A stretch of 34,890 nucleotides of DNA from Bacteroidota bacterium (GTDB lineage Bacteria; Bacteroidota; Ignavibacteria; T3Sed10-11): positions 1 to 34,890 of the forward strand of contig SLQE01000248.1 of the NCBI GenBank assembly GCA_007131635.1, in the 5' to 3' direction. Made by a program: the position numbers and the translations under genes. The notes under the pieces were generated by a model. The model was not told the DNA's origin. It did no database searches and saw only the letters and a program-made list of their open reading frames with translations. Of the stretch, positions 28,048-32,283 are shown in pieces. How positions within the stretch are numbered: position 1 is the first letter of the stretch; each line of letters starts with the position of its first letter.

Positions 28048-29172
28048 TCACTTAACCAATTTCAACTTCATCGACTCAATATGGGGTCCGGCATACAGAC
28101 GGGCAAAATAAGCACCGCTTGCAACACTTTCTCCCGCATTATTTTTTCCATCCCATGTTACCTCAAACGATCCTGCCTGATAGTGTTCATAATTAACGAT
28201 ATTTCTGACAAGTCGACCGTGAATATCATATACGGCAAGCGTTACTGTTTCAGCCTGCGGCAATGAGAACCGGATTGTCGTGGATGGATTAAAAGGATTC
28301 GGATAATTCTGGTGTAATTTATACGTCGGAGAAAAAGCCTCGACCTTATTCGCTGATGTAAAACCACCGGTGTGATCTCCGTGACACTGAATACATTCCA
28401 TTTTTCCAATTGTGTCGTCAAATATATTGGGTCCATGGCAATTCATACAGTACTTAACCGACGCCTCGGTTTCATAGAGCGGTTGGAATTGGTTCCTTAA
28501 TTCGTCATTCATAATCTGAACAGAATATGCCGCGATATCACCGGTAAGTCGGGCACATCTTTCACTTCGCTCGGTGGTTGACCTTTTAACGCCTGATTTG
28601 GCGCACCAATTTGAAACCGATACATGACAGAGCGGTGATCCGGCAACGGTTTGGAGTATCTCACCGGTAAATCTATTATCGGTGAATTTATGTTCCTGAG
28701 CGTACTGGTTGCTTATGTCAGTTGGAGTATCAACAACAGTGTACCAACCAAGCAGCTCATTTCCCAGTTTACCGGACTTCTCTTTGTCCCAGCATAAATT
28801 TATCGCCGTCAAAGCTCCGATTAGTCCACCGCATAGTGTCCCCCAGCCCCATGCGCCCCCTCTTCCCCATTCAAGAAAATCAGTCGGCATCAGCGTGTAA
28901 GGCTCACCAATCTCTTCGGCAAGCATCGAGACAATTGCGTGAAATGCCCCGTATGAGCAACCTTTCCCGGTCCAGTAGCCGGCATGTCCGCGAATCCGCG
29001 CTTCTTCCGGATCCAACTCAACATACGGCCATGGCCAATCTGCTGTTTTGATTCCCGCACCGGCTCTATTCCGGGTTAACAAACCCAATGCTCCCATACC
29101 TGCGGTTATTCCGGCAGCGTATTTTGCACTGTTTGTCAGGAATTCTTTCCGCGATAGCAATGTTTTTTCCAT
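28048..29172 (-). CDS. Split-Soret cytochrome c / C_GCAxxG_C_C-type diheme protein with T9SS-like C-terminal sorting domain
   Basis: N-terminal LSRKEFLTNSAKYAAGITAGMGALGLL (Tat-like with RK); GKGCSYGAFHAIVSML and WGTLCGGLIGAL; heme motifs CMNCH and CIQCH; C-terminus YKLHQNYPNPFNPSTTIRFSLPQAETVTLAVYDIHGRLVRNIV...SGAYFARLYAG. Confidence 0.8.
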   Translation of the reverse strand: MEKTLLSRKEFLTNSAKYAAGITAGMGALGLLTRNRAGAGIKTADWPWPYVELDPEEARIRGHAGYWTGKGCSYGAFHAIVSMLAEEIGEPYTLMPTDFLEWGRGGAWGWGTLCGGLIGALTAINLCWDKEKSGKLGNELLGWYTVVDTPTDISNQYAQEHKFTDNRFTGEILQTVAGSPLCHVSVSNWCAKSGVKRSTTERSERCARLTGDIAAYSVQIMNDELRNQFQPLYETEASVKYCMNCHGPNIFDDTIGKMECIQCHGDHTGGFTSANKVEAFSPTYKLHQNYPNPFNPSTTIRFSLPQAETVTLAVYDIHGRLVRNIVNYEHYQAGSFEVTWDGKNNAGESVASGAYFARLYAGPHIESMKLKLVK

Positions 29173-29609
29173 AGTCTAACACCATTCGTGTAAGGTGAAA
29201 TATCTTGAATAGCCATTTAATGTGATGGTATTTTGCGTTACAAAATCTGTACCATCAAATATTTAACCAGAGCTATAATATTCTCGCTTTTTACTGCATA
29301 TTTCTGAAAACTAATAAATTTATACTGTCGCAATTATATACGGTAAATTCGTAAATATCGACAGCGCCCTTTATATTCAAAGATTTTGTAAATATTCGGT
29401 CTTCATGTAAGCCGAAAAGATGCTTAATTAATCGGCATTTGTCGTTTATCGTTAAAATAAATAGAATTCTCACTTCTAAGAAATCTTTAATTATTTCTCT
29501 GAAAAAATATTACAAAATCCGGAGTTATTGATATTTGAAACCTCATAGTTAAACGCCGTATGATTGAATAATTTATTAGGATTATTTCTATTAGAGGATG
29601 GGAAAATAT

Positions 29610-29638
29610 TTGACAAAGTATAATATAAACTGTATATT
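29610..29638 (+). promoter_or_regulatory. Strong sigma70-like promoter for a candidate small RNA
   Basis: TTGACA - 17 nt - TATATT, with TG directly before the -10. Confidence 0.6.
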
Positions 29639-29644
29639 CCGGTC

Positions 29645-29814
29645 TAAACATATAACAATCTAAGACAGCCAATAATTACAATGATTGCGGCTCATCCACA
29701 TGACGTCGTTGGAACGACTATCGGAGAGCAGCTTGTCCCATTGATTGGATCCGATAGTAATTATTCAGCTTAGCCCGAATACTACATAGGTACATAGTAT
29801 TCGGGTTTTTTTTT
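29645..29814 (+). ncRNA. Candidate structured small RNA of unknown family
   Basis: Bounded by a promoter and an intrinsic terminator; helices CTAAG/CTTAG (29660-29664/29769-29773), AATAATTAC/GTAATTATT (29671-29679/29757-29765), GTCGT/ACGAC (29705-29709/29714-29718), CTATCGGA/TCCGATAG (29718-29725/29750-29757). 5' end is estimated. Confidence 0.55.
29774..29814 (+). terminator. Rho-independent terminator
   Basis: CCCGAATACTA-catagg taca-TAGTATTCGGG (11-bp perfect stem) followed by nine T. Confidence 0.92.
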
Positions 29815-29828
29815 GTTAAGCCGCTTCA

Positions 29829-29938: not shown

Positions 29939-31228
29939 ATGAGCAAAGAAACCCTTACCATTACCGATAACAGAACCGGTACATCATATGAAATACCGAT
30001 CGAGCACGACACTATTAAAGCTATGGATCTACGGCAGATAAAAGTGAAGGATGACGATTTCGGTATGATGGCGTATGATCCCGGTTTTACGAACACCGCT
30101 TCGTGTAAAAGTAAAATTACTTTCATCGACGGAGAAAAAGGAATACTGCGATATCGCGGCTACCCCATTGAGCAAATTGCCGAAAAAAGCAACTATCTTG
30201 AGACAGCTTATCTAATCCTGTTCGGTGAATTACCCACAAAAGAACAATATGAGGACTGGGTATATCACATTACTCACCACACGTTTGTTCATGAAAATGT
30301 CAAAACATTTATGGACGGCTATCAGTACGATGCCCATCCGATGGGCATACTTGCAAGTACCGTAGCGGCACTCTCGACATTTTATCCGGAAGCAAAAAAA
30401 GTAGATGATCCGGAAGTCCGCTTACATCAGATCCACCGTCTTATCGGAAAGATGCCGACTCTAGCGGCGTATGCTTACCGCCACAAAATGGGATTTCCGT
30501 ATGTCTACCCCGATAACGATCTCAGCTACACCGGTAATTTCTTGAACATGCTCTTCAAAATGAGTGAACCAAAATACGAGGTCAATCCGGTGCTCGAAAA
30601 AGCTCTCGATGTGCTCTTCATTCTTCACGCAGATCACGAGCAGAATTGCAGTGCGAATGCTATGCGAAGCATCGGCAGCTCAAATGCCGACCCGTATGTT
30701 GCTACAGCGGGAGCAGCTGCAGCGTTATACGGTCCGCTCCATGGCGGAGCCAATGAAGCAGTATTGAGAATGCTGGCTGAGATTGGAGATATCAAGAAAG
30801 TTCCAGAATACATCAAGCGGGTCAAGGCAGGTGATTTCCGGCTTATGGGCTTCGGGCACAGGGTCTATAAGAACTATGATCCAAGAGCGAAAATAATCAA
30901 AAAAATGGCCGATGAGGTTTTCGAAGTAACCGGAAGAAATCCATTGCTTGACATTGCCCTCGAACTTGAACGTATTGCTCTTGAAGATGACTTCTTTGTA
31001 AGCCGCAAACTATATCCCAACGTAGACTTCTATTCGGGTCTTATCTATCAGGCAATGAAGTTCCCGACGGACATCTTTGTGGTACTGTTTGCAATACCGC
31101 GTACTTCCGGTTGGCTTGCCCAATGGCTTGAGTTCCTCGATGGTCCGGACAGAAAAATAGCCCGACCGCGTCAGATATATCTTGGCGAGATAACCAGGGA
31201 CTATGTAGAGATTGACAAGCGGAAATAA
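29939..31228 (+). CDS. gltA: Citrate synthase
   Basis: GILRYRGYPIEQIA, HADHEQNCSANAMRSIGSSNADPY, GPLHGGANEAVLRML, MGFGHRVYKNYDPRAKI; RBS aaaggag. Confidence 0.98.
   Translation: MSKETLTITDNRTGTSYEIPIEHDTIKAMDLRQIKVKDDDFGMMAYDPGFTNTASCKSKITFIDGEKGILRYRGYPIEQIAEKSNYLETAYLILFGELPTKEQYEDWVYHITHHTFVHENVKTFMDGYQYDAHPMGILASTVAALSTFYPEAKKVDDPEVRLHQIHRLIGKMPTLAAYAYRHKMGFPYVYPDNDLSYTGNFLNMLFKMSEPKYEVNPVLEKALDVLFILHADHEQNCSANAMRSIGSSNADPYVATAGAAAALYGPLHGGANEAVLRMLAEIGDIKKVPEYIKRVKAGDFRLMGFGHRVYKNYDPRAKIIKKMADEVFEVTGRNPLLDIALELERIALEDDFFVSRKLYPNVDFYSGLIYQAMKFPTDIFVVLFAIPRTSGWLAQWLEFLDGPDRKIARPRQIYLGEITRDYVEIDKRK

Positions 31229-31278: not shown

Positions 31279-32283
<1,005 letters not shown>

Follow-up and report, generated by a model that had tools for sequence, protein, structure and literature searches.

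A multicopy structured RNA element with its own promoter and terminator precedes gltA1 and unrelated genes in one uncultured Bacteroidota-like genus

In Bacteroides, a 14-member family of small RNAs binds the RRM protein RbpB (PMC11697453). The FopS RNAs are approximately 65–70 nt long, are transcribed from sigma-ABfr promoters, and lie in intergenic regions, antisense to genes or in 3′ UTRs (PMC11697453). The element described here, which lies upstream of a citrate synthase gene in the 34,890-nt stretch of DNA that we analyzed (hereafter the window), resembles the FopS/GibS family in being multicopy, dispersed, noncoding and promoter-driven, with at least one copy in a 3′ UTR and an RRM protein in the host phylum. 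It differs in its length of ~165 nt, in its TTGACA/TATATT promoters and in being always co-directional with the next gene; the separation from FopS is drawn on these traits. With the leaders of attenuators and riboswitches, the element shares the order of promoter, structured leader, intrinsic terminator and gene, and the occurrence of one element before several genes. In contrast to such leaders, it has no conserved antiterminator or alternative pairing, precedes unrelated genes and is limited to a single genus. Mobile promoters and MITE-like repeats are likewise promoter-bearing DNA dispersed upstream of non-homologous genes within one genome, but the element has a covarying RNA structure and a terminator, and persists at orthologous sites. 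Any resemblance to RybB and SdsR is limited to the terminator-proximal part of the element.

A first-pass annotation had proposed for this locus a structured RNA that brings its own promoter and terminator. This proposal was borne out, and the multicopy family with covariation reported below makes the case stronger. All motifs quoted in the annotation were found where it had placed them, including the promoter and the 11-bp terminator stem followed by nine T, which are separated by ~165 nt (Table 1). The feature itself is genuine, but the annotation had underestimated its extent and folded part of it wrongly. Transcription of the window copy probably starts at approximately position 29,645. 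The divergent neighbor on the other side (28048–29172, minus strand) encodes a C_GCAxxG_C_C redox protein with a type IX secretion-like tail.

Table 1 Features of the element and its downstream genes in the window (positions of the window).
Feature	Coordinates	Strand	Remarks
Sigma-70-type promoter TTGACA-N17-TATATT	29610..29638	+	11/12 match
P0 position, GCCAATAATTAC	29668..29679	+	Unpaired in the window copy; GCGA-loop-UCGC hairpin in most relatives
P1 hairpin AUGA-UUGCGGC-UCAU, conserved loop UGCGG	29681..29695	+	Primary sequence strongly conserved
Single-stranded conserved stretch CCACAUGAC	29696..29704	+	From the alignment
P2 hairpin GUCGU-UGGA-ACGAC	29705..29718	+	Pairing from the alignment
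P3 hairpin CUAUCGG(A)...(U)CCGAUAG	29718..29757	+	Pairing from the alignment
Intrinsic terminator, 11-bp stem CCCGAATACTA/TAGTATTCGGG, 10-nt loop, nine T	29774..29814	+	
30-codon ATG ORF overlapping the element	29681..29773	+	Judged non-coding
gltA1 (citrate synthase), downstream gene	29939..31228	+	Start codon ~125 nt beyond the terminator
Malate dehydrogenase gene beside gltA1	31360..32283	+	Also in G002 and G005; product named from sequence

Comparison with Rfam 15 at gathering scores yielded no match for the window or for 13 loci with other copies, in agreement with the earlier view that it resembles none of several common RNA classes. The best sub-threshold match was RybB (22.1 bits, cut-off 40), SdsR reached 18.3 bits (cut-off 38), and the matches at relaxed thresholds were mostly terminator-like tails of small RNAs. 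Searches of the literature yielded nothing relevant on a gltA leader or on a dispersed attenuator family. The fold energy of the window leader was unremarkable when the terminator was left out (z = −0.8) and became notable only when it was included (z = −2.8), and the mean z-score over the copies was −1.5. Energy alone proves little, and the case therefore had to rest on relatives.

A blastn search revealed a second copy in a different context of the window's genome, and altogether 17 matches in six genomes of the GTDB family, all belonging to one genus. With a covariance model that spans the element from promoter through terminator (R2), 18 places were recovered at 120–231 bits, and the next scores (≤34 bits) were terminators and remnants. 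These places represent 16 distinct copies, because G1a/G2a and G1b/G2c are identical DNA in two bins and each pair was counted once. The copies occupy at least ten contexts, and none of the six analyzed genomes of the genus lacks the element. About 11 of them occur in G002, a 4.9-Mb bin with 7% contamination whose copies may derive from more than one strain. Searches of 387 further genomes of the class and of 296 genomes of a phylum sample with R2 yielded no true match. The class-level matches that a shorter model gave outside the genus were carried mainly by the terminator in the alignments inspected, and none of these matches survived the longer model. Phages, plasmids and viral contigs contained no match either, the viral test consisting of one exact 17-mer. 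Overall, the element appears to be a genuine, previously undescribed RNA family, confined to one uncultured genus. G5b (L103:11225–11423) is a divergent copy (about 50% identical). A degenerate remnant, alike in two genomes, was located at G000:C158:7–180 (L127, L165) and L110:2465–2638. In G002 an intact copy follows ~0.35 kb downstream of the remnant; in G000 the remnant is situated at a contig end, so that the assembly may lack a third copy.

Conservation of the helices and compensatory changes in relatives, which the first-pass annotation had named as a check, were found for P2, P3 and the terminator. Without guidance, RNAalifold selected P0, P2, P3 and the terminator. In an alignment of 14 copies from which the divergent G5b was excluded (A2), four pairs had changed on both sides compared to 1.5 in shuffled alignments, and 18 of 500 shuffles reached four, which is moderate support. 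In a second, sequence-only MAFFT alignment with G5b in place of the promoterless copy, ten pairs showed changes at both positions; shuffled alignments gave 2.6, and none of 500 reached ten. Much of this signal is contributed by the G5b row. The terminator was paired in 98% of cells, showed compensatory changes and was kept in all complete copies. P3 was paired in 93% of cells, and in three of its pairs both partners had changed; G5b retains all seven pairs as UUACCGG/CCGGUAA, compared to CUAUCGG/CCGAUAG in the window. For P2, 89% of cells were paired and two of the four counted pairs had changed on both sides. P0 was paired in 79% of cells, with two cells changed on both sides. P1 was paired in 94% of cells but hardly varies and is hence neutral with regard to pairing; in G5b it reads UGAG-GUCGG-CUCA, with 12 of 17 sequence positions kept. 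The closing helices of the earlier fold (CTAAG/CTTAG and AATAATTAC/GTAATTATT) are present in the window but specific to it, as only 60% and 68% of cells, respectively, pair in relatives. Because these helices are not conserved, the suggestion that they stack tightly or switch is unsupported. Two further candidates were rejected, namely a long helix GCUC/GAGC as an alternative fold, which was paired in 84% of cells and is broken in several copies without compensation, and a 5′ helix from single-sequence prediction (helix H; 71% of cells paired).

In most copies, exactly 17 nt separate a −35 hexamer resembling TTGACA from the −10 hexamer, and in G5b the spacing is 16 nt. Promoters of Bacteroidetes are usually of the sigma-ABfr type; the window and most copies have classical TTGACA/TATATT promoters in a lineage labeled Bacteroidetes. 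In copy G2b (L104:4053–4208, minus strand), which follows an OmpA-like gene 11 nt after its stop codon, in a 3′-UTR-like position, the promoter is lost.

At all ten independent sites with a known downstream gene (gltA1, G0b, XDH-like 2Fe-2S gene, G2b, G2d, G2f, G2g, G2h, G2i, and G5b), the element is co-directional with that gene (p about 0.001 for random orientation and about 0.006 at a probability of 0.6 per site). A terminator between promoter and co-directional gene is the rule at these sites, with G2b lacking the promoter. The downstream genes are gltA1, a small lipoprotein-like gene, the XDH-like 2Fe-2S gene, and genes for a sensor kinase, a BNR-repeat protein, a TonB receptor, two paralogous Fib_succ_major proteins (both preceded by the element) and a large secreted-type protein, as well as one gene truncated at a contig end. 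They share no common pathway. The distance from terminator to start codon in seven copies was 20 (G2d), 40 (G2g), 56 (G2f), 63 (G5a), 81, 86, and 95 nt, and no promoter candidate was detected in this interval in G2d and G5a. The element was located upstream of gltA1 in five genomes, with differing neighbors further upstream. Two citrate synthase genes, with 88–96% identity to the window's protein, were found in five genomes. The second, nearly identical gene, gltA2 (e.g., G000:C276:4593–5879, L183), sits behind a fumarase-like gene, and the element is absent from gltA2 in the three genomes with a readable upstream region.

We consider the chances to be even that the element is a leader module specific to the genus, which combines a promoter with an attenuator and releases a short RNA as well. 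RNA polymerase would start from the strong sigma-70-type promoter, and the leader transcript would fold into P1, P2 and P3. Most transcription would end at the intrinsic terminator and release an RNA of ~165 nt, which may also act in trans. Only read-through would reach gltA1 and then the malate dehydrogenase gene, so that the module would set their output. Copies of the module have dispersed to sites before unrelated genes. The promoter, P2, P3, the terminator, the multicopy spread and the co-orientation are established by comparison of the copies at the sequence level. Attenuation in cis is favored because other readings do not easily account for the orientation and spacing; the joint conservation of promoter and terminator with the structure, and the linkage of the element to gltA1 but not to its paralogue gltA2, also support a leader. 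That the RNA is produced, that read-through feeds the gene and that termination is regulated we can only infer. For the regulation, no antiterminator proved to be conserved: removing the 3′ arm of the terminator from the alignment did not alter the fold, and a candidate antiterminator between the 5′ arms of P3 and the terminator was rejected, with two copies mismatched at one position and at most three pairs holding in G5b. Counting against a leader are the aldo-keto-reductase-like site, where the element is retained and the downstream gene varies, the copy G1a, which has no good gene within about 400 nt downstream, the promoterless G2b, and the missing pathway theme. Downstream of G1a, a TIR-domain protein with TPR repeats is encoded at L099:2838–4610 (plus strand).

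We regard it as possible, albeit not probable, that the element instead is a multicopy family of trans-acting, FopS-like small RNAs, whose terminated ~165-nt transcripts would pair with or sequester other RNAs, perhaps together with an RRM protein. Its own promoter, the constitutive-looking terminator and the lack of a conserved switch would fit such a role, as would the stand-alone copy G1a and the 3′-UTR-like copy G2b. As in Bacteroides, an RRM protein is present and Hfq was not detected: each of the six genomes encodes a single RRM_1 protein (L186–L189). The exposed stretch GCGGCUCAUCCACAUGA is highly conserved. However, all copies are co-directional with the next gene and often leave no space for a second promoter. 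Furthermore, near-perfect complements of GGCUCAUCC (≤1 mismatch in 12) did not lie at evident start codons in 30 inspected loci, but were found inside open frames or in the element itself. This seed test, crude and restricted to near-perfect pairing, makes the trans-acting reading somewhat less likely. The first-pass annotation had preferred a small RNA gene over a gltA leader. Its argument from a separate gltA promoter (TTGCAA-N18-TACAAT) fails, as this candidate matches at 9 of 12 positions, a level that such a region produces by chance (eight found, 5.1 expected), and is not retained in orthologues. The stand-alone copies and the lack of a conserved antiterminator speak for its preference, whereas the co-orientation everywhere, the linkage to gltA1 and not gltA2, and gaps of 20–40 nt at two sites speak against it. 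On balance, we favor the leader over the FopS-like small RNA.

A self-dispersing cassette of promoter, leader and terminator that places unrelated genes under one RNA-level control, with a metabolite, the RRM protein or a trans RNA as the sensor, appears rather unlikely. Still less probable is a mobile or selfish repeat (MITE-like or a “mobile promoter”) that carries the promoter, hairpins and terminator by coincidence and does nothing for the host. As many as about 11 copies in a single bin, the occurrence of remnants and a star-like tree of the copies, in which G1a sits on a zero-length branch and no fork is strongly supported, would be consistent with such a repeat. At orthologous sites, however, the element is nearly as conserved as the coding flanks (77% identity vs 80%, and 74% vs 78–83%), whereas the other intergenic DNA around it cannot be aligned; moreover, compensatory changes keep the pairing, and visual inspection revealed no terminal inverted repeat. 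Very improbable is a leader-peptide attenuator in which translation of the overlapping ATG ORF (27–34 codons, open from a conserved ATG in most copies, and often terminating at or within the 5′ arm of the terminator) would let the ribosome decide on terminator formation, as no coding selection was detected, indels break the frame in G2e, G3a, G2g and G2j, and no Shine-Dalgarno sequence is present. Variability is lowest at the third codon position, and the counts of synonymous and non-synonymous changes are much alike in all three frames; a small protein encoded by this ORF was rejected on the codon-position statistics and the frame breaks.

Our results point to an undescribed RNA family with covariation support in one uncultured Bacteroidota-like genus. 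The genus has RRM proteins and no detected Hfq, and riboregulation in it is little known. The pair of gltA1 with the element and gltA2 without it provides a natural control for the function of the element, and the multicopy spread could reveal how promoter-attenuator modules propagate.
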